Positions 38,983-49,042 of a stretch of 64,000 bases of DNA are shown piece after piece (position 1 is the first letter of the stretch; each line of letters begins with the position of its first letter). The notes under the pieces are model-generated. The model had not been told where the DNA came from. It did no database searches and worked only from the letters and a program-made list of their open reading frames with translations. The stretch spans positions 496,001 to 560,000 of the forward strand of contig NZ_WHUT02000001.1 in the NCBI RefSeq assembly GCF_009380135.2. Reading direction: 5' to 3'. The position numbers and the translations under genes are program-made. The DNA is from Fertoeibacter niger. GTDB lineage: Bacteria > Pseudomonadota > Alphaproteobacteria > Rhodobacterales > Rhodobacteraceae.

Positions 38983-40050
38983 TCAGAACCCCGCCAGCCG
39001 CACACCATCTGCGCCAAAGGCATGCACCATGGCCGGATCGACATCAAAGCCCACCACATCGCCGCGCGCCAGCGCCGGTTGGCCCGGCAGCACGGCCAGC
39101 AGCTTGGCCCCCTCGTTCAGCGTGGCATGCACCACGGTTTCAGACCCCAGCGCCTCGATCAGATCGACTTTCGCCGTCAGATCCGCCTCCACCCCTTCGG
39201 ACAGCAGCAGATGCTGCGGGCGGATGCCCAGCGTCACTGCGCCGGATGGGGGCAGCGGCAGGCCGCCAAGGTCAATCTCGGGCCCGCCTTCCAGCCGCGC
39301 GACGCCCCGCGCCATGGTAGCCCCGAACATGTTCATCCCCGGCGCGCCGATAAAGCCCGCAACAAACAGGTTCGCGGGGCGGTTATACAGGTTCAAGGGC
39401 GTGTCCACCTGTTCGATCCGCCCGGCGCGCAGCACGACAATGCGGTCGGCCATGGTCATCGCCTCGACCTGGTCATGGGTCACATGCACCATCGTGGCCC
39501 CCAGCCGCGCATGCAGCGCCGACAGTTCGGCGCGCATCGATACGCGCAGCTCGGCATCCAGGTTCGACAGCGGCTCGTCCAGCAGAAACGCCGTGGGCCG
39601 GCGCACGATGGCGCGGCCGATGGCCACCCGCTGCCGTTGCCCGCCCGAGAGTTGCCCGGGGCGGCGTTCCAGCAGCGGCTCGATCTCCAGCAGCCGTGCC
39701 GCATCGGCGATGCGGGCGTCAATCTCGGCCCGGGCCATGCGGGTGTTCTGCAAGCCGAAGGCCATGTTCTGCCGCACCGACATATGCGGATACAAGGCAT
39801 AGCTCTGGAACACCATCGCCAGCCCCCGGTCAGCGGCAGAGCGCGGCGTCACATCGGTGCCGTTGATGGCGATGGTGCCTGCGGTCGGCTGGTCCAGCCC
39901 CGCGATCATCCGCAGCAGGGTGGATTTGCCGCAACCCGAAGGCCCGACGAACACCACCAACTCGCCATCGCCCACCTCCAGGTCGATGCCCTTCAGCACA
40001 TCCACCGCGCCAAAGGATTTCTTGATGCCTTTCAGACTGATCTGGCCCAT
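38983..40050 (-). CDS. Sugar ABC transporter ATP-binding protein (MalK/UgpC-type)
   Basis: A 355-residue ATPase of the carbohydrate importer class 1. Walker A is GPSGCGKST at about 36-44, the signature LSGGQRQRVAIGRA, Walker B FLLDEPLSNLDAELR, and the C-terminal regulatory TOBE domain from about residue 235 (VTLGIRPQHL). It follows two permease genes and a solute-binding protein, the last gene of the uronate operon. The partner proteins are all present. Confidence 0.92.
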   Translation of the reverse strand: MGQISLKGIKKSFGAVDVLKGIDLEVGDGELVVFVGPSGCGKSTLLRMIAGLDQPTAGTIAINGTDVTPRSAADRGLAMVFQSYALYPHMSVRQNMAFGLQNTRMARAEIDARIADAARLLEIEPLLERRPGQLSGGQRQRVAIGRAIVRRPTAFLLDEPLSNLDAELRVSMRAELSALHARLGATMVHVTHDQVEAMTMADRIVVLRAGRIEQVDTPLNLYNRPANLFVAGFIGAPGMNMFGATMARGVARLEGGPEIDLGGLPLPPSGAVTLGIRPQHLLLSEGVEADLTAKVDLIEALGSETVVHATLNEGAKLLAVLPGQPALARGDVVGFDVDPAMVHAFGADGVRLAGF

Positions 40051-40060
40051 GTCGGCCCCC

Positions 40061-41110
40061 CTATTTCAAACCGGAGCCGGCAATGCCGGTGGTGATGAAG
40101 CGTTGCAGGAACAGGAAAACGATCACCACGGGGATCATCGTCACCACCGTCATCGCCAGGATAAAGTGCCATTGCACGTTCAGCTCACCCGCATAGGTGT
40201 TCAGCCCGACTTGCAGGGTATAAACCTCTTTGCGGCTGAGAACGATCAGCGGCCACAGGAAATCGTTCCAGCGCCACACGACCGAAAAGATGCCCAGCAC
40301 CGCCAGCGCCGGTGCCGTCAAGGGCAGCACGATGCGCCAGTAGATCTGCCATTCGGATGCATGGTCCATCCGTGCCGCCTCCAGCAACTCATCCGGGATG
40401 GTCAGCATGTATTGCCGCAGCAGGAAGATGCCGGTGGGCGTGGCGACCGTGGGCAGGATCACCCCCCACAGGCTGTTGAACAGGCCGACCGCCGAGATGA
40501 TCGAATACAGCGGCACAAGGATGACCGACAGCGGGATCATCAGCGTGGCCAGCACCGTCAGCATCACCGCATTGCGTCCGCGGAACTCGTATTTCGACAG
40601 GGCAAAGGCGGCCATCGAGTTGGTCAGAAGCGTGATCAGCGTGGCCACCACCGTGACGAACACCGAGTTTTTCAGATACAGCATGAAGTCGAAGGCCAGG
40701 AACGGCTGCACGTAATTGTCCCAGGCAAAGCCCACCTGCCGGTCAGGCACGCGGTTGGCGATGTTCACGCGCTGAATCTCGCCGGAGTTTGCCGGATCCA
40801 CCATCTGCGCGGTTGTGCCCACCCGGCGCACTTCGGCCAGGGTGCGGGTGCCCGCCTCGTCGGTCACGATGAACAGCGGCAAGGGCTTGTCATAGCCTTC
40901 GACCACCACCGTGCGGGATTCGTAAGGCAGCGCGGTGGGCGGAAATTCCGCCAGCTGCGCGGGCGATTTGAAGGATGACATGATCAGCCACAGGGCCGGG
41001 CCGAACATCACGATCACGCCGAAGAACAGCCAGCCGAACGTGACCACATCGGTCCAGTGCCAGCCCTTTCCGCCACGGCGGCGGAACAGGAATGCGGAAA
41101 CCCGGCTCAT
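40061..41110 (-). CDS. ABC transporter permease, MalG type
   Basis: Inner-membrane component of the importer. Six helices are plausible, with the conserved EAA loop near ELLEAARMDHASEWQIYWRIVLP. A large loop of about 110 residues between the first and second helix (residues 40-140) is longer than usual for MalG and should lie in the periplasm. 349 residues. The ATG overlaps the MalF-type gene by four bases (ATGA-type). Confidence 0.9.
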   Translation of the reverse strand: MSRVSAFLFRRRGGKGWHWTDVVTFGWLFFGVIVMFGPALWLIMSSFKSPAQLAEFPPTALPYESRTVVVEGYDKPLPLFIVTDEAGTRTLAEVRRVGTTAQMVDPANSGEIQRVNIANRVPDRQVGFAWDNYVQPFLAFDFMLYLKNSVFVTVVATLITLLTNSMAAFALSKYEFRGRNAVMLTVLATLMIPLSVILVPLYSIISAVGLFNSLWGVILPTVATPTGIFLLRQYMLTIPDELLEAARMDHASEWQIYWRIVLPLTAPALAVLGIFSVVWRWNDFLWPLIVLSRKEVYTLQVGLNTYAGELNVQWHFILAMTVVTMIPVVIVFLFLQRFITTGIAGSGLK

Positions 41111-42120
41111 TTCAGCTTTCCCTTCTTCTCGTTCCGGCGGCTGATCGCCAATTGGATCAGCGTCAGCACCACCAGCACCGCCCCCATCAGGATCGAGGCC
41201 GCAGCCGCCAGCCCGGGGTTTTTCAACAGCGAGGCAAAGCCCACCTCGTAGATATATTGCGTCAGGAACAGCGTGGCCGTGCCCGGCCCGCCGCCGGTCA
41301 GCACGAACGCCTCGTCAAACACCTGCACCGCGCGGATAAGCGCCAGCACGATGACAACCAGCAGGTTGGGCATCAGCAAAGGCAGGGTGATGCGCCAGAA
41401 CACGCGGCCCGGCTTGGTGCCGTCCATCTCGGCGGCCTCATACAGATCTTTCGGTATCGCCTGCAATCCGGCCAGCAGGATCAGCGCGTAAAAGCCCAGA
41501 TGCGCCCAGATCGTCACGCCGATGGCGGCTGCAAAGGCCCAGTTGCGCTCGATCAGCCAGTTCACCGGGTCAAGGCCCATGGGGATGATCATGGCGTTCA
41601 GCAGGCCGTCACGCTGCAGGATCCAGCGCCAGATCAGGCCCACCACCACCGGCGACAACAGCACGGGGAAAAAGAACACCGCCCGCCAGAAACTGCGCGC
41701 CCGCAACTCGCGGTTCAGGATCAGCGCGGTAATGGTGGCGGTGACGATCAGCAGCGACACCTGCAACACCACGAACAGCGCGGTGTTGGCCAGCGCGGTC
41801 CAGAACTGGTCCTGCGCGCAGGTCGAAGGGTCGGTGTAATCGTCGCAATCCAGAAGCTGCGCATATTGCGCGGCACCCACATATTCACGGTCCGACAGGA
41901 ACAGCGCCCCGCCGGTCGTCATCGAATAGGCAAAGTTGATCACCAGCGGCAGCAGCACGAAGACGCCGAAGATCGCCATGTTCGGCAGCAGGAAAAAGGC
42001 CGCCATGCCCCCTGTGCCTGTCAGCCGCTGCCAAAGGCGCAGCGGCGGGTCAATCGCCCGGGCAGCCCAGCCCAGGGGGGCCGTGACCACGGCCCCCGCC
42101 ATCTGTTTCAACTGTGCCAC
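41107..42120 (-). CDS. ABC transporter permease, MalF type
   Basis: Membrane permease of the same importer, with the EAA loop YEAAEMDGTKPGRVFWRITLPLL. A periplasmic stretch near CDDYTDPSTCAQDQFW carries two cysteines. The start is taken as GTG (VAQLKQMAG), eight bases after the binding-protein stop and behind GAGGG; longer ATG starts would run into the binding-protein gene. 337 residues with this start. Confidence 0.85.
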   Translation of the reverse strand: MAQLKQMAGAVVTAPLGWAARAIDPPLRLWQRLTGTGGMAAFFLLPNMAIFGVFVLLPLVINFAYSMTTGGALFLSDREYVGAAQYAQLLDCDDYTDPSTCAQDQFWTALANTALFVVLQVSLLIVTATITALILNRELRARSFWRAVFFFPVLLSPVVVGLIWRWILQRDGLLNAMIIPMGLDPVNWLIERNWAFAAAIGVTIWAHLGFYALILLAGLQAIPKDLYEAAEMDGTKPGRVFWRITLPLLMPNLLVVIVLALIRAVQVFDEAFVLTGGGPGTATLFLTQYIYEVGFASLLKNPGLAAAASILMGAVLVVLTLIQLAISRRNEKKGKLK

Positions 42121-42127
42121 GATGCCC

Positions 42128-43399
42128 TCAGTTTCCGCCGGCGGCAGCCACGGCCTCGGCCACATCGGCATCGATGCGGGCATAGGCGTCATCCAGCGTC
42201 AGTTCGCCCGCCATCACCTGGCTGATGCGGTTGGCCAGCGCGCCGTAATAGGCCGAACCCCATTTCCATGCGGGCAAGGCGGCGGCAGCCGGAACGATAT
42301 CACCCGAGGCTTCGACGAACTTGTCCAGCGCCGGGCCCACGTTCGGGTCTTCCGACGCCCAGGCCAGCCCACCGGCCGAGGCCACGCCCTTGTGCGCGGG
42401 CAGGAACAGGGTGCGTTCGCTGAACTCCTTCACCACGGCGGCAGAGCCCAGATATTCCATCACCTTGGCCACGTCTTCGGGGTTCTGGGTATATTTGATC
42501 GCCACCAGACCCGCGCCGCCACCCAGACCAGAACAGCCCGCCGTGCCACAGGGCGAGCCCGTGGCCACCCAGTCGAACCCGTCACCGATCTTGGTGGACA
42601 GGTTCGCCACCTGCCACGAGCCGGAATAGTAGAACGGGATGGCTGCGTTGATGAAATCATCCGCCGCCGCGCGGTAGGTGGAACCCGAGGCCGAAACCCA
42701 GGTATCCTTCAGCATCTTGCCATCATTGGTCCAGGCCACCAGCTTTTCCGCAAAGGCCTTGGTGCCCGCATCCACCGGCAGGGGGGCGCGGTCGGGGCCG
42801 ATGTAGTTGGCGCCGTAGGAAGCATTCGGCCCCGAGATGCGGTGGCCCGAACGGTCGATGGCAAAGGCGGCTGCGGTCTGCTGGCTGGCCTGCACCTCGG
42901 AGGCGGCGGCGATCCAGTCATCCCAGGTGGCATCGTCGCCCGGAATGGCCACGCCCGCCTGTTCGAACAGCGTCTTGTTGGCGAAGCCGCCGGTCAGCGT
43001 CAGCTGGGTCAGGAAACCGTTGATGGCGGTGCTGCCGTCTTCGCGCATCCAGTCGGCGTAATCGCCGAAATTCGCCTCCCAATAGGCCGGGTCTTGCAGG
43101 TGGGGGGTCAGGTCAAGCCAGTGGCTCGCCAGCGCCTTGAGGTTGGTGACGCGGGCGATGTCCGGCCCGGTGCCGGCCTCAAGCTGAATCTGCAGTTGTT
43201 CCTGCACCACCTTGTAGGCCACGTTGTCGAGGATCACGTTGATGTCGGGGTTCTGTTCCATGAAGCGGTTCAGGAGATCGGCGATCACCTCGCCCTCCAC
43301 ACCGTCGGAATACCACATCACGCGCACATCCCCGGCCCAGGCGGCCGAGGTCATCATGCCAAAGCCAAGCGCGGCCAGGGCGGTCATGGTCCGTTTCAT
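42128..43399 (-). CDS. Sugar ABC transporter substrate-binding protein
   Basis: A 423-residue class-I extracellular solute-binding protein with signal peptide MKRTMTALAALGFGMMTSAAWA, exported to the periplasm. The mature part has VRVMWYSDGVEGEVIADLLN and the typical middle segment FINAAIPFYYSGSWQVANL. The neighbouring permeases and ATPase complete the importer, and the genes upstream suggest that its ligand is an unsaturated uronic-acid oligosaccharide. This ligand is inference. An ATG four codons further upstream is also possible. Confidence 0.9.
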   Translation of the reverse strand: MKRTMTALAALGFGMMTSAAWAGDVRVMWYSDGVEGEVIADLLNRFMEQNPDINVILDNVAYKVVQEQLQIQLEAGTGPDIARVTNLKALASHWLDLTPHLQDPAYWEANFGDYADWMREDGSTAINGFLTQLTLTGGFANKTLFEQAGVAIPGDDATWDDWIAAASEVQASQQTAAAFAIDRSGHRISGPNASYGANYIGPDRAPLPVDAGTKAFAEKLVAWTNDGKMLKDTWVSASGSTYRAAADDFINAAIPFYYSGSWQVANLSTKIGDGFDWVATGSPCGTAGCSGLGGGAGLVAIKYTQNPEDVAKVMEYLGSAAVVKEFSERTLFLPAHKGVASAGGLAWASEDPNVGPALDKFVEASGDIVPAAAALPAWKWGSAYYGALANRISQVMAGELTLDDAYARIDADVAEAVAAAGGN

Positions 43400-43496
43400 T
43401 GTCGGTATCACAGGTCGTCTCCTCCTCTGTGCCGCGCCGGTCTGGTCCGGTCGCGGCGGTTGTCTGTCGTGTTGTGCCTTCGGCTCTGACGGCCGG

Positions 43497-45959
43497 TTAC
43501 AGCACCTGGCGGTGTCCCTCCACCGACCATTGCGCGGGGTCGATCACCCGGCCCTCGGCCTCGATCCGGCCATCGGGATGGAACAGCACCGTGCCATAAT
43601 CCGCATCCTCCACCCGCAGCACATCCTGCGGGCCACCGGCCAATGTCAGGCCCTGATGCCGGGCCGCAAAGCCCGTCAGATCAACTGTGGCCCCAAGCCG
43701 CAGTATCCACCAGTTTTTCTGCCCGGCAAGCCGCAATTCGCAACCTGCCGTCGGGCCCTCGGCCACAAGTTCCAGCGGGCCGGAGGTGCGCAGCATCATG
43801 CCGCCACCCCCGGACCGGGCCGCCGCCAGCGCACCATTCACAAGGCACTCGTCAAACACCGGCTGCGGAAACCAGGCATGGGTAAAGGCGGGCTGTTCCG
43901 GCACGCCGTCAAACAGCACAACCGCCAGCCCGCGATACTGCTGCACCCGCGGCACCGAGGCGCAGCCGCCCCAATAGGACGGGCGGCCATAGCCGGAATG
44001 GATCACCTCACCCGGGTGGTTGATCCAGGTCTGGGCATCGGGGTTGGTGCCGATGCGGGCGTGGATCACGGTTTCCTGATAGCCCCAATCATACCAGCGG
44101 TAATGCGCCGCCGTGCCCATGGCCCAGTCTTTCGTCTTGGCATGTTGCAGGGTGGCAAAGCAGTTTTCACCCTGGGCAAAGCCCCATTCCTGTTCGCCAT
44201 CCGTCAAGTTCGCCCGTTCCGGCAGGCCTTCGGTCAGCACCAGCCCGTGATCGCGCAGGCACAGCGCCAGCCCCGGCAGCGCATGGAAACGCGCACCATA
44301 ATTGCCCGCCCCCCAGATCAGCCGCCCGATGGCCGACAGTTCCAGCGACCGACCGGCCCGCAGCGTGTGTTCATACGACCGGCCCTGCGCCGCCGTCAGC
44401 ACGCCGTGGTGCGCGGAATTCGCCACCAGTTGCAGCAGGCGGATGATGCCCTTGCCCGCCCGCTCGGAAATATCGGCATCGGGGGCCAGCGCATGCAAGG
44501 CGGTCAGGCCCTTGAGATCAATCGGGAAATAGGGGGCCGAATTGAACTCGGCCATCTCCCAGGCCTCGAAATGATCCAGCCAGTCACGCACTCGCTGCGC
44601 GCCCACCGCCGATTGTTCGGCCCCCGTGCGGCCTGACCGTTTGAAGGTAGCGTCGGGCAGGAAAGCCCCAGCCAGATAGGCCGATGTGTGGAACAGCAGC
44701 GCGTGGTTCTCAGAGAAATACCACTGCACGTCATTGCCCGGCTCGTCCATCCAGTAGCGGTAGCCCAGCATGGCGGCGTCGATGCGGTTGCGCGTCGCCT
44801 CGGGCAGCAGATGGCCAAAACGGGTGCGGCCCCAGATCAGCGGCACCAGCGCGAAATCTGCGCAATCCCAGCAATCCTCGATGGTGGGCAGCGTCGCCTC
44901 GATCATCGCCGCCGTGCGCTCGTCGCCAAGGCCAAGGCCCAGCCGGGCCAGTGCGGCCACGGTATCGGGTTCGGAATGTTCGGCCACCTCGGTCAACGCC
45001 TCGGTGATGCGGGTCGCAAGGTCGGGCGCGGCGGTGCCCTGCCGCCCGGCGTGGCAGATCTCCACCCCGAACACCCGGGTTGCGGTAAATCCGCCCGCCG
45101 TCAGCGCGATGGTGAAATGGCGGAAATCGCCCGGCAGATCCTCGGCCCGGTCGATCAGCAGGCGCGTGGCCCCGGCGGGCAAGGCCCGTTCCATGCCCAT
45201 GCTTTGATGCGACATGAAATCGCCCTCGACGGTGATCTTTGCCACCGTATCGGCAGGGATCGGGCGCGGCAGGGTCAGCGCCACCTCGCCCGTGGTATAG
45301 GCGGGAAGCTCGAAATGCATCGTCGCCAGCGCGGTTTCCACAGCCCGGGCGGTCTCGGCAGATCCTGCCAGCGGAATGCCCGCCACGCCCGCAGGCCCGC
45401 TGAGGTAATCAAGCTGGATGTAATAGCGCGCGTCCCGCTCGGCCAGATCGTCGAACCAGACGGCGATGGTGTTGTCGCCCGCGTTCAGCACCACGTCAAA
45501 TTCGGCGGCGCTTTCGCTGTTGCGCTTGTAGGGCGCCAAGAAGCCCGCCTCGGCCCCGTTCACCAGCAGCACCGCGCCGCCGCAGGTGCGCAGGCGCAGC
45601 CGGGCCGCGCCAGCAGTATCGGCGCGCAGCACGGTCTGCGCCCAGGTGGCGATATGGGTGGGGCGAAACCAGAAACCCGACAGGTCAAGCCGGGGCGAAT
45701 CGAACGGCAGCCACAGGCGCGCGAGTTCATCCATTGCCGCAGCTTCGGGGCGCAGGCCCCTGCGCTGCTTGGCAAATTCGGTGCGGCAAGGGTATTCGTG
45801 CGGGATGAAGTTCTTGTCCTTGGTCAGGAAAAAGAACGGGTCCATCTCGCCCGCCATCGGCATGTCGGGCAGGTCATAGCGGGCCTCAACGGTGGCCCCC
45901 ATCTGCCAATAGGTCAGCGGTGCGCCATGGGTCAGCGGGTGGGACAGCAGGTTTTGCAC
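43497..45959 (-). CDS. 820-residue protein of unknown family in the uronate operon
   Basis: I do not recognise this protein. It has no signal peptide, so it should be cytoplasmic. Residues ~90-190 look like a jelly-roll (LSGFWFRPTHIATWAQTVL, then GDNTIAVWFDDLA). Residues ~310-600 are mainly helical and contain QWYFSENHALLFHTSAYL (412-429), and the last ~200 residues are strand-rich with RWYDWGYQETVIHARIG and TWINHPGEV. This order (beta, then alpha-helical toroid, then beta) recalls some polysaccharide lyases and glycosidases, but no known catalytic motif matches. The context, between a binding protein and KduI with GH105 beyond, suggests a carbohydrate-active enzyme for uronate-containing oligosaccharides. 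Confidence 0.75.
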   Translation of the reverse strand: MQNLLSHPLTHGAPLTYWQMGATVEARYDLPDMPMAGEMDPFFFLTKDKNFIPHEYPCRTEFAKQRRGLRPEAAAMDELARLWLPFDSPRLDLSGFWFRPTHIATWAQTVLRADTAGAARLRLRTCGGAVLLVNGAEAGFLAPYKRNSESAAEFDVVLNAGDNTIAVWFDDLAERDARYYIQLDYLSGPAGVAGIPLAGSAETARAVETALATMHFELPAYTTGEVALTLPRPIPADTVAKITVEGDFMSHQSMGMERALPAGATRLLIDRAEDLPGDFRHFTIALTAGGFTATRVFGVEICHAGRQGTAAPDLATRITEALTEVAEHSEPDTVAALARLGLGLGDERTAAMIEATLPTIEDCWDCADFALVPLIWGRTRFGHLLPEATRNRIDAAMLGYRYWMDEPGNDVQWYFSENHALLFHTSAYLAGAFLPDATFKRSGRTGAEQSAVGAQRVRDWLDHFEAWEMAEFNSAPYFPIDLKGLTALHALAPDADISERAGKGIIRLLQLVANSAHHGVLTAAQGRSYEHTLRAGRSLELSAIGRLIWGAGNYGARFHALPGLALCLRDHGLVLTEGLPERANLTDGEQEWGFAQGENCFATLQHAKTKDWAMGTAAHYRWYDWGYQETVIHARIGTNPDAQTWINHPGEVIHSGYGRPSYWGGCASVPRVQQYRGLAVVLFDGVPEQPAFTHAWFPQPVFDECLVNGALAAARSGGGGMMLRTSGPLELVAEGPTAGCELRLAGQKNWWILRLGATVDLTGFAARHQGLTLAGGPQDVLRVEDADYGTVLFHPDGRIEAEGRVIDPAQWSVEGHRQVL

Positions 45960-45968
45960 GGGAATTCC

Positions 45969-46802
45969 TTAGCGCAGGTCGGCAATGTTAACGGGGCTCA
46001 CGTCGGTATAGGCCTGGTTCTCGCCGGTCATGCCCCAGACAAAGGCATAAGGCCCGGTGCCCGCGCCCATATGGATGGACCAGGCGGGTGACAGAACGAT
46101 GTCACCCGAGGCGACGATCAGGTGCCGCGTCTGGTCGGGGCGGCCCATCAGATGCACCACGCGGTCCTGTGCCGCCATGTCGAAATAGCAATAGGCCTCC
46201 ATCCGGCGTTCGTGCAGATGCGGGGGCATCGTGTTCCAGATGCTGCCGGGGGCCGGATCGGTGATGCCCATCAACAGCAGGCAGGAAGGTGCCACCTCGG
46301 GGTGGATGTACATCGCCAAGGACCGCACGTTGGCGCGGGCGGCGTCGCCCATGGTGATGACCTTGGCCTGGGCCTTTGTGATGAGCCGCGTCGGATGGTC
46401 GGCCCCGGCGGGAACCGAATTCATGTAGAACCATGCAGGCGCGGCGGGATCATCCGATTCCAGCGTGACGCTGCCTGTGCCGCGCCCGACATACAGGATG
46501 TCGCGGTTGGCCATGGCAAAACGCTGGCCGTCCACCGTCACCACGCCCGGCCCGCCCAGATTGGCGATGCCCATTTCCCGCGCGTCAAAGAACAACGGTG
46601 TGCCTACATCGGCCCCGTCGCCGAAGGTCAGCGGCGCTGTGGGGCAGGCCCCGCCCACAATCATCCGGTCAACATGGGTATAGGTGAAACGCTGAGCGCC
46701 CGGCGCAAAATGCCCCTCGACCAGATATTCGGCGCGCAGGCGCTCGGTATCATAGCCGGGAATATCGGCGGGGTTGCCGCCATAGCGGATGTCCATCGTC
46801 AT
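45969..46802 (-). CDS. kduI: 5-Dehydro-4-deoxy-D-glucuronate isomerase KduI
   Basis: Converts 5-keto-4-deoxyuronate (from unsaturated uronides) to 2,5-diketo-3-deoxygluconate. The cupin zinc motif HLHERRMEAYCYF and LMGRPDQTRHLIV are visible, as is the SPAWSIHMGAGTGPYAFVWGM tail. 277 residues. The ATG overlaps the stop of the GH105 gene (ATGA), so the two are coupled. KduD is not in the window. The isomerase defines the substrate class: unsaturated uronates from pectin, or similar polysaccharides. Confidence 0.92.
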   Translation of the reverse strand: MTMDIRYGGNPADIPGYDTERLRAEYLVEGHFAPGAQRFTYTHVDRMIVGGACPTAPLTFGDGADVGTPLFFDAREMGIANLGGPGVVTVDGQRFAMANRDILYVGRGTGSVTLESDDPAAPAWFYMNSVPAGADHPTRLITKAQAKVITMGDAARANVRSLAMYIHPEVAPSCLLLMGITDPAPGSIWNTMPPHLHERRMEAYCYFDMAAQDRVVHLMGRPDQTRHLIVASGDIVLSPAWSIHMGAGTGPYAFVWGMTGENQAYTDVSPVNIADLR

Positions 46803-47908
46803 GCGGTTTTCCTTTGCGCATCCGCCTGCCCCACCTGCCCCGCTGCCTCGACCAGACACAGCATCGCCAGCGCCTGACCATAGCCGGTGGGCTGGATCGG
46901 GATGTCACGGTAAAATTGCAGGTCATGGCCCATGCGGGTGCCGTAAGACACGTTCAGCACGGTGCCGCTATCGTCAATATTGGCCAGCACCGCCGCCACC
47001 CCGCGCCAGCCGGCATCGGCCCAAGCCGCGTCGCCCAGCCCCAGCCGCACGGCTTTCAATATGCCATAGGCAAACCCGGCGGTGGCCGAGATTTCCTCGT
47101 AGGCGTAGGGATCATCCAGCAGCGTGCGCCATGCGCCTGACGGGGCCTGCAAGGGGAGCAACGCCTGCACCTGCGCCGTCAACACGCCAGTCAGATAGGC
47201 GCGGATGGCGGGCGGCACATCGCAAAGCTCATACAGATCAAGGATGCAGGCCGTGACCCAGGCATTGCCGCGCGCCCAGCGGGCCCGGGCAAAGTTGTGG
47301 CGGCCCTCGAATGTCCAGCCATGAAACCACAGGCCCGTCGCCGGATCGGACAGATAGCGCGTATGCACCAGAAATTGCCGCAAAGCCTCGTCCACCAGTT
47401 CGGTGCGGCCCGATGCCTGCCCATAGCTGGCCAGAAACAGCGCCGCCATGAACAGCGTGTCATCCCAGAGTTCGCCGGGGTTCACCTTGTCGGAGACGTC
47501 ATGCTGCAAGCCGCCCTCTGCGGTGCGCGGCGCTTCCGCCATCAGGCGGTTCGCCCAGTCGTCCAGCACCGCCTGCCAGCGCGGATCGCGGGTTTCGCGC
47601 CATAGCACCGACAAAGCCAGCATCGGCCCGGTTGTGTTGATATTCAGCCCCGGCAGCCCTTCGGCGATGCGCTCGGCATACCAGCCCTCCAGCAGGGCGC
47701 GCAGGGCGGGGTCGCGGTGCCGCAGCCACAGTTGCACAAGGCCATAAAGCCCCACGCCCTGTGGCCATTCCCACGAAGTAAAGCTGATGTAATCGCCCGC
47801 CGTGCCATCCAGATTAGGCTCGTCAAAGGTGCCGTCATGGCGCAGGGCCGTCAGGCCGTTGACCAGCAAATCCAGCCGTGCATGCAGCATCGTGGCATCC
47901 GGCAGCAT
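46799..47908 (-). CDS. GH105 unsaturated glycuronyl hydrolase
   Basis: Cleaves the unsaturated uronic residue from lyase-made oligosaccharides (YteR/YesR type). Family features are WEWPQGVGLYGL, ELWDDTLFMAALFLASYG (148-163, with the catalytic Asp at 149 or 150), LWFHGWTFEGRHNFARARWARGNAW (HGW 196-198, WARGNAW 211-217) and SATAGFAYG. 369 residues with an all-helical toroid. No signal peptide, so it acts on imported sugars in the cytoplasm. It is the first gene of the operon, divergent from the LacI gene. GH88 is an alternative. Confidence 0.88.
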   Translation of the reverse strand: MLPDATMLHARLDLLVNGLTALRHDGTFDEPNLDGTAGDYISFTSWEWPQGVGLYGLVQLWLRHRDPALRALLEGWYAERIAEGLPGLNINTTGPMLALSVLWRETRDPRWQAVLDDWANRLMAEAPRTAEGGLQHDVSDKVNPGELWDDTLFMAALFLASYGQASGRTELVDEALRQFLVHTRYLSDPATGLWFHGWTFEGRHNFARARWARGNAWVTACILDLYELCDVPPAIRAYLTGVLTAQVQALLPLQAPSGAWRTLLDDPYAYEEISATAGFAYGILKAVRLGLGDAAWADAGWRGVAAVLANIDDSGTVLNVSYGTRMGHDLQFYRDIPIQPTGYGQALAMLCLVEAAGQVGQADAQRKTA

Positions 47909-47963
47909 CGCGTCTCCCCCCGCTTTGTTCGTTGATGAAAATGCCGTGAGAAAATGATTTGCA

Positions 47964-47988
47964 CAATCTGAAAATTTTTTGCAGATTG
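47964..47988. promoter_or_regulatory. Candidate LacI-type operator
   Basis: Inverted repeat CAATCTG / CAGATTG with an AT-rich 11-base centre, in the 99-base divergent region between the GH105 gene and the LacI gene. The region is markedly AT-rich compared with the genes. It lies 20 bases upstream of the LacI start and 56 upstream of the operon start, where a repressor could control both. Confidence 0.5.
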
Positions 47989-48007
47989 ATCCATAAAGGA
48001 GCCAATC

Positions 48008-49042
48008 GTGGACATCACCGGAAAGAAGGGCAAGATCAGCCGCCGCGTGCGTTTGCAGGATATTGCAACGATCTGCGGGGTGTCGGTTTCCACCGTGTCG
48101 CGCGCGCTTGCCGACGGGTCGGGCGTGCGGCCCGATCTGGTGGCCAGGATACAAAAGGCGGCGCAGGATTTCAGCTATGCCATGCCCTCGTCGCTGGCGG
48201 GGCAGAAGGTGATGGTGCTGGCCTCGGCGGCGGCCATGGTAGATTACACGCGCAGCCAGTTCACGCTTCAGGTGATGCAGGGTCTGGGCGACCGGGCGGC
48301 CCTGCTGCGCTTGCAGGTCATCACCCGCGCCGTGGCCGACAGCGAGGATGAGCGGCGGATTTTGCAAGAGGTCGAGGCGGATGATAGCATCGCGGGCCTG
48401 CTGTTCCTGACGTTGGATGACGAGGCGATGCTGGCCCCCACGCGCGGCTTTTCCAAGCCCATCGTGCTGGTCAACGGCGATGACCCCACGATGCGGCTGT
48501 CATCCATCGCGCCCAGCAACCGGGCTGCGGCGGCGCTGGCCACCGGGCATCTGCTGACGCTGGGGCACCGGCGGATATTGTTCCTGATGCGGCGCGGGCG
48601 GCGCACGATCGAACGGCGGTTCGAGGGCTGGCGCGACCGGATGGTGGCGGCAGGCGTGCATGACCCGGCGCTGGTGGTCGAGGTGGCCGACTGGCTGCCC
48701 GAGCTGGCCGCCGATGCGGTGCGGGCACGGCTGCGGCAGGGGCGCGACTTCACGGCGATTCTGGCGGCGGGGGATTCGCTGGCCATCGGGGCCTTGCAGG
48801 CGTTGGCGGCCGAGGGCGTGGCGGTGCCCGGCGAAGTATCGGTCATGGGGATGGACAGCCTGCCGCAAGGCGCGTTCCAGACGCCGCCCCTCAGCGCGAT
48901 CCAGATGCCGATGCGCGAGATCGGGGCGGCAGCGGTGGATCTATTGCGCGAGATCCTCACCGGCCTGCCCCTGCCCGCGCGGCGGATCGAACTGGCCTGC
49001 GGCTTGCAGGAGCGCGGATCGACGGGGCCCGCGCCGCGCTGA
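48008..49042 (+). CDS. LacI-family transcriptional regulator
   Basis: The N-terminal helix-turn-helix is RLQDIATICGVSVSTVSRAL followed by the hinge GVRPDLVARIQKAAQDFSY. A periplasmic-binding-protein-like sugar domain follows, including the ILAAGDSLAIGALQALAAEG strand and the VSVMGMDSLPQ end. 344 residues. It is divergent from the uronate operon with the palindrome between, so it probably represses that operon until a uronate or oligosaccharide ligand binds. Ligand unknown. Confidence 0.9.
   Translation: MDITGKKGKISRRVRLQDIATICGVSVSTVSRALADGSGVRPDLVARIQKAAQDFSYAMPSSLAGQKVMVLASAAAMVDYTRSQFTLQVMQGLGDRAALLRLQVITRAVADSEDERRILQEVEADDSIAGLLFLTLDDEAMLAPTRGFSKPIVLVNGDDPTMRLSSIAPSNRAAAALATGHLLTLGHRRILFLMRRGRRTIERRFEGWRDRMVAAGVHDPALVVEVADWLPELAADAVRARLRQGRDFTAILAAGDSLAIGALQALAAEGVAVPGEVSVMGMDSLPQGAFQTPPLSAIQMPMREIGAAAVDLLREILTGLPLPARRIELACGLQERGSTGPAPR

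Follow-up and report, generated by a model that had tools for sequence, protein, structure and literature searches.

What an enzyme acting on unsaturated uronides does for its living when no recognisable lyase accompanies it is the question raised by a seven-gene operon in the genome of Fertoeibacter niger (contig NZ_WHUT02000001.1, positions 496,001 to 560,000; this stretch of 64,000 nucleotides is called the window below). The seven genes share one orientation and encode a glycoside hydrolase of family GH105, the isomerase KduI, an 820-residue protein that we call X820, a substrate-binding protein (SBP), the permeases MalF and MalG and the ATPase MalK, with a LacI-family regulator transcribed divergently. 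GH105 enzymes require a Delta4,5-unsaturated uronyl end. Since the unit encodes no other lyase and the N-terminus of X820 shows no obvious signal peptide, this end is most simply explained as a product of X820, made in the cytosol after import. From sequence and structural modelling, we consider it likely that X820 is a cytosolic enzyme of the polysaccharide lyase (PL) type, which would convert imported, probably rhamnose-containing uronides into Delta4,5-uronyl ends for GH105, and that it is probably the missing enzyme making the GH105 substrate. A preliminary description, made from the sequence alone, had placed eight open reading frames (ORFs) here; all of them are present and free of internal stops, and Pfam and NCBIfam bear out the identities that it gave to GH105, KduI, the complete MalEFGK-type importer and LacI.

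In the annotated records examined, X820 is a "hypothetical protein". It has no match in Pfam at E≤10 or in NCBIfam at E≤1, three divergent family members likewise lack Pfam matches at E≤1, and no Pfam profile connects X820 to the PF07940-type heparinase II/III proteins and their relatives. No match was obtained against PDB sequences, and profile searches returned chance-level matches only, with no lyase at E≤10; the preliminary description had recognised no pectate or alginate lyase family in this protein. A profile-profile comparison with GH105 as a helical-barrel control gave no signal, and literature searches for an X820-type lyase found nothing. Judged from these searches, the X820 sequence family is absent from Pfam-A and NCBIfam, its predicted fold and probable chemistry being already known.

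The AlphaFold2 model of X820, computed with 50 homologues (predicted local distance difference test, pLDDT, 86.8; predicted template modelling score, pTM, 0.89), begins with beta domains, continues with a helical toroid and ends in a beta-sandwich; the preliminary description had proposed a beta / helical / beta layout. The fold search with the full-length model ranked GH2 enzymes first, with template modelling (TM) scores of 0.10-0.14 over very long and poorly superposed alignments; this search was set aside and repeated on residues 300-820, modelled alone with similar scores (pLDDT 86.3, pTM 0.89). Ranks 1-22 of this PDB search are all toroid/beta-sandwich enzymes active on uronates, namely 21 lyase chains or entries and dermatan sulfate epimerase 1. 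They include PL12 heparinase III (6.5e-07), PL35 GAGases, PL33, PL15 Atu3025, PL17 Alg17c, PL39 and PL8, with PL12, PL33 and PL35 as the best matches (E 6.5e-07 to 7e-06). The model thus displays the (alpha/alpha)n toroid followed by an antiparallel beta-sandwich that is typical of the PL8/12/15/17/21/33/35/39 class. The preliminary description had this protein acting on sugars of the unsaturated-uronide type in the cytosol and had envisaged a new lyase or glycosidase family: the fold search selected the lyase, and the proposal of a new lyase family is supported at the level of fold. It had also held that the novelty would be lost if a known CAZy family were strongly matched by profile or by structure; this came about only in part, the fold class being known and the sequence family being absent from Pfam-A and NCBIfam.

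Two other enzymatic roles can be weighed against these matches. A glycoside hydrolase, for instance with a rhamnosidase-type helical barrel, removing the neutral sugar that GH105 exposes on imported unsaturated oligosaccharides, appears unlikely: the full-length model also matches GH78 rhamnosidases and a beta-1,2-glucanase besides the GH2 enzymes, and rhamnohydrolases are expected in rhi clusters according to PMC3870299, but the poor GH2 superpositions may stem from the N-terminal sandwiches alone, glycoside hydrolases drop to rank 27 and below once these are removed, and the conserved Asn-His/Tyr/His pattern is of the lyase type. It is still less probable that X820 is a uronyl C5-epimerase converting imported uronides ahead of GH105. 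Among the fold matches listed, the top TM-score (0.50) is that of human dermatan sulfate epimerase 1, and epimerases share the first proton-abstraction step with lyases; however, an epimerase would not create the unsaturated end that GH105 needs, all remaining top fold matches are lyases, and the unit offers no second candidate for that step.

The conserved residues of X820 point to the lyase type. Glu417, Asn418, His419, His424, Glu471, Ser474 and Tyr477 are invariant in 112 homologues that span 27-73% identity, and His648 is kept in 106 of them; the segment QWYFSENHALLF (about residues 412-424), to which the first inspection had drawn attention, holds the invariant Asn418-His419 pair. Asn418-His419, Tyr477 and His648 are predicted to form the lyase triad. 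In characterised PL12/15/17/21/35/39 enzymes, the triad spacing is ~53-57 residues from Asn (or His) to Tyr and ~130-166 from Tyr to His (Asn192/Tyr246/His401, Asn240/Tyr294/His424, His311/Tyr365/His531, Asn201/Tyr258/His413, His202/Tyr257/His406 and Asn186/Tyr239/His405; PMC12088678 Table 4), and PL33 has a triad of the same type (N238, Y291, H444; PMC11848413). The corresponding X820 spacings, 59 and 171, lie slightly beyond these ranges. Random placement of the invariant residues gives such spacing in 0.2% of trials, a mild estimate since the spacing window was widened to take in the values observed in X820. As far as sequence and spacing go, X820 would therefore carry the Asn(or His)/Tyr/His triad of the toroid lyase class. 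Gln replaces His648 in 4 sequences, possibly an alignment effect, and model confidence is low in the active-site loops, which would suit a lyase relative that binds uronides in a non-catalytic or regulatory role; we regard such a role as highly improbable, because Asn, His, Tyr and Glu are invariant over the whole identity range and, together with the strict GH105 linkage, suggest a catalytic role.

This linkage is apparent from the distribution of the unit. Scanning one genome per species gave 75 independent loci whose X820 is 54-73% identical to that of F. niger, and in all but a few of them, in Rhizobiales and Rhodobacterales, a common gene order is found, with LacI divergent from GH105-KduI-X820-SBP-MalF-MalG-MalK. 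The LacI cluster is present around X820 in 69 loci and each other gene of the unit in at least 73; GH105 is adjacent to or near X820 in 73 of the 75 loci and in 19 of 19 further family loci. The gene set also surrounds X820 in further Rhodobacteraceae, and the GH105 partner is found near X820 in Catenovulum, Rhizobium pRL12, Thioclava and enterobacteria-like genomes. The recurrence of the unit exceeds chance. An all-against-all clustering of the flanking ORFs was dominated by shadow ORFs, and a class-wide sample of 385 genomes contained X820 only in the host itself.

A second, divergent subfamily (group 2, ~27-35% identity) occurs on Rhizobium plasmids and in Thioclava, Catenovulum, enterobacteria-like genomes and other Rhodobacteraceae; its Rhizobium plasmid loci carry both GH105 and GH28. 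In some Rhodobacterales, a tripartite ATP-independent periplasmic (TRAP) importer takes the place of the ATP-binding cassette (ABC) importer, with X820, GH105, KduI and KduD retained. A Haladaptatus plasmid encodes a shorter relative of 661 residues (L099, 14782-16767), with no GH105 nearby, in which the ENH and Tyr motifs are retained although the N-terminal beta part is largely missing; a heparinase II/III gene and genes for sugar isomerases/oxidoreductases are among its neighbours. A KduD-type dehydrogenase gene lies near ~30 of the 75 loci, mostly immediately past MalK. A dienelactone hydrolase (DLH)-type esterase gene adjoins 28 of them (e.g. L096, 17876-18766), on the same strand in Rhizobiales and mostly on the opposite one in Rhodobacterales; this esterase may strip the imported sugar of acetyl or methyl esters.

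As to the substrate, a rhamnose operon directly abuts the X820 unit in one locus of each subfamily (L146 in group 1, L100 in group 2). RhaEW is enriched in genomes with X820 (11/22 versus 91/375, Fisher p=0.01, phylogeny not corrected for), and the host genome encodes RhaEW, 80% identical to the Thioclava query. A LacI-type regulator, RhiR, and an ABC importer are predicted to serve rhamnogalacturonides in Rhizobiales and Erwinia (PMC3870299). We favour rhamnogalacturonides or rhamnose-capped glucuronides as the substrate. The main competing proposal is a lyase acting on a rhamnose-free substrate (glucuronan, bacterial exopolysaccharide, gellan-like or glycosaminoglycan-type oligosaccharide), to which we give a smaller but appreciable probability: the best fold neighbours of X820 act on glycosaminoglycans and alginate, the ligands modelled for PL33 include gellan gum (PMC11848413), and some loci have the TRAP importer. 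The adjacent rhamnose operons, the pectin-type GH28 hydrolase in group 2 loci and the published regulon prediction argue against it.

Several observations weigh against a rhamnose-linked lyase. Half of the X820 genomes are without RhaEW, the sole rhamnose route examined, so that rhamnose is not obligatory, and uxuA adjoins the group 2 unit in locus L155, which suggests that some members handle glucuronate; both points also speak for the rhamnose-free proposal. In Palleronia (L058, 8941-11517), X820 and the importer have neither GH105 nor KduI next to them, and a UxuB-like gene is found upstream instead. NCBIfam NF051900 labels the GH105 clade "beta-galactosidase BglB" (530.8 bits, cut-off 420), a label that conflicts with the KduI context and for which literature searches on a GH105 "BglB" found no paper. 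On the structural side, TM-scores to the top fold matches are modest (0.27-0.50, with large root-mean-square deviations), so that they support the fold class and no single PL family; AlphaFold2 gives its lowest confidence to the conserved loops of the active site (residues 35-55, 413-417, 470-477, 526-532, 653-666); and hhalign of X820 against five haloarchaeal heparinase II/III proteins gave a probability of 2%.

If X820 is a lyase for rhamnose-containing uronides, the pathway could run as follows. The importer would take up short uronic-acid oligosaccharides, probably with rhamnose (rhamnogalacturonide or rhamnose-capped glucuronide). In X820, the carboxylate of the uronic acid at +1 would be neutralised by Asn418/His419, with Tyr477/His648 performing the base/acid steps; beta-elimination would cleave the bond at O4, so that the preceding sugar, e.g. 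rhamnose, is freed and the chain now starts, at its non-reducing end, with a Delta4,5-uronyl residue. This residue would then be hydrolysed off by GH105, and the two enzymes may alternate along the chain. The freed uronyl residue would rearrange to DKI, to be passed through KduI, KduD and 2-keto-3-deoxygluconate (KDG) kinase to the Entner-Doudoroff route, and released rhamnose would go to RhaEW. The lyase chemistry, exo mode, substrate and order of steps are all inferred. KduD and KDG kinase, rightly reported as absent from the window, are both encoded on the same contig, ~8 and ~15 kb ahead of where the window begins, which makes the pathway complete in the genome. They belong to a host uronate cluster ~50 kb from X820 (C11:480-489 kb; L112, C11:476100-496000) that comprises kdgK, a GntR gene, uxaC, a TRAP importer, a second kduI, kduD and uxuB. 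A PL11-type rhamnogalacturonan lyase was searched for in the host genome and none was found. The second GH88/105 gene of the host (C32:61123-62196; L123, 9052-10194) is unlinked to X820 and lies beside a peptide-type ABC importer and a dihydrodipicolinate-synthase-like gene.

Among known enzymes, the PL15 exo-oligoalginate lyase of Agrobacterium (Atu3025) and PL17 Alg17c share with X820 the predicted toroid and beta-sandwich and an Asn/His-Tyr-His triad of similar spacing; their substrates are short oligosaccharides, which is also the expectation for X820. Unlike them, X820 has a larger N-terminal beta part, no detectable sequence match and a GH105 partner, whereas exo-oligoalginate lyases free the unsaturated monomer themselves. 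The PL12 heparinase III, PL33 and PL35 lyases share fold and triad types with X820 and differ in their substrates, which are glycosaminoglycans, and in the lack of a sequence match; no N-terminal beta extension of comparable size is described for them in the available parts of the sources. What sets X820 apart is the presence of beta domains at the N-terminus and the close association with GH105. The RhiR-controlled rhi cluster resembles the unit in its LacI regulator, ABC importer and predicted substrate, and no X820-type protein is described for it in the available part of PMC3870299.

The reaction type proposed for X820 is that of PL27 and PL42, L-rhamnose-alpha-1,4-D-glucuronate lyases that remove rhamnose and leave a Delta-glucuronyl residue (PMC8377490). 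PL42 is, unlike X820, a beta-propeller; PL27 is described as an N-terminal beta-sandwich followed by an (alpha/alpha)6 barrel. Neither family appears among the X820 sequence matches or the fold matches listed, and membership in PL27, compared by description only, is unsupported. Another lead, and only that, is the Bacillus yesOPQ/yteR/yetA rhamnogalacturonan unit, in which, we presume, a cytosolic protein of ~850 residues (PL26-type YetA) stands beside GH105 and an ABC importer. X820 differs from YetA in having no Pfam match at all, and membership in PL26 (PcRGLX/YetA) was rejected, no PL26 structure being recognised among the fold matches listed.

More tentatively, and with somewhat more doubt than confidence, X820 could found a new PL family of cytosolic exo-lyases that uncap rhamnose and alternate with GH105 on rhamnose/uronate chains, with two subfamilies in alpha- and gamma-proteobacteria and a shorter haloarchaeal relative. 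Such an assignment would enlarge the toroid lyases by one sequence family and give a candidate function to a "hypothetical protein" in hundreds of records from plant-, soil- and alga-associated bacteria, nodulating rhizobia among them. It would also account for the use of imported saturated uronides by these cells, since GH105 alone cannot start on a saturated end.

Table 1. Coordinates of the X820 unit within the window, with the support for each feature.
Feature	Position	Strand	Support
LacI-family regulator, divergent	48008..49042	+	Pfam PF00356/PF13377
Conserved operator-like box AAATTTTCAGATTGTGCAA	47959..47977	-	overlaps 25-bp imperfect palindrome at 47964-47988
GH105 unsaturated-uronyl hydrolase	46799..47908	-	GH88/105 PF07470 1.3e-82; start moved from 48052
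KduI, 5-dehydro-4-deoxy-D-glucuronate isomerase	45969..46802	-	NCBIfam equivalog NF002091 3e-106; start moved from 46859
X820, predicted toroid/beta-sandwich uronide lyase	43497..45959	-	AlphaFold2 model, PDB fold search, 112-sequence conservation
X820 Asn418-His419 codons, predicted carboxylate neutraliser / base	44703..44708	-	112/112 conserved; spacing vs PMC12088678 Table 4
X820 Tyr477 codon, predicted acid/base tyrosine	44529..44531	-	112/112 conserved
X820 His648 codon, C-terminal beta-sandwich, predicted third catalytic residue	44016..44018	-	106/112 conserved
SBP, periplasmic sugar-binding protein of importer	42128..43399	-	SBP_bac_1 PF01547 4.6e-17; start moved from 43411
MalF-type permease	41107..42102 (readable from 42192)	-	BPD_transp_1 PF00528 8.5e-18
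MalG-type permease	40061..41110	-	BPD_transp_1 PF00528 1.3e-19
MalK/UgpC-type ATPase	38983..40050	-	NCBIfam NF008653 4.6e-135, above cut-off

The GH105 ORF as listed from 48052 runs into lacI; its likely start is the ATG at 47908, preceded by a putative GGGGGAG ribosome site, which leaves a divergent intergenic region of 99 bp. This gap contains a 19-bp box, AAATTTTCAGATTGTGCAA in the window, that recurs in 66 of the 70 divergent intergenic regions versus 0 of 1400 shuffles and is a single site in the 4.3-Mb host genome when up to two mismatches are allowed. Conservation in the gaps and uniqueness in the genome fit the expectation for a single-operon LacI operator; we consider this operator-like box a putative LacI operator, through which LacI would repress the unit, the direction of control being presumed. 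The probable KduI start is the ATG at 46802, which forms an ATGA overlap with the stop codon of GH105; the NF002091 model begins at residue 22 of the long ORF (354.9 bits, cut-off 250). The SBP probably starts at 43399, where an ATG is followed by a signal-peptide-like stretch.

PDB matches of GH105 are 3qwt, 3pmm and 4xuv, and also YteR and the ulvan-type 4ce7; W148-D149-D150-T151, in the catalytic Asp region, is invariant in 8 members. The MalG-type permease, of 349 residues, has an apparent insert of ~70 residues past the first membrane helix, its family match starting only near residue 139-168, and this insert is possibly a contact to the binding protein.

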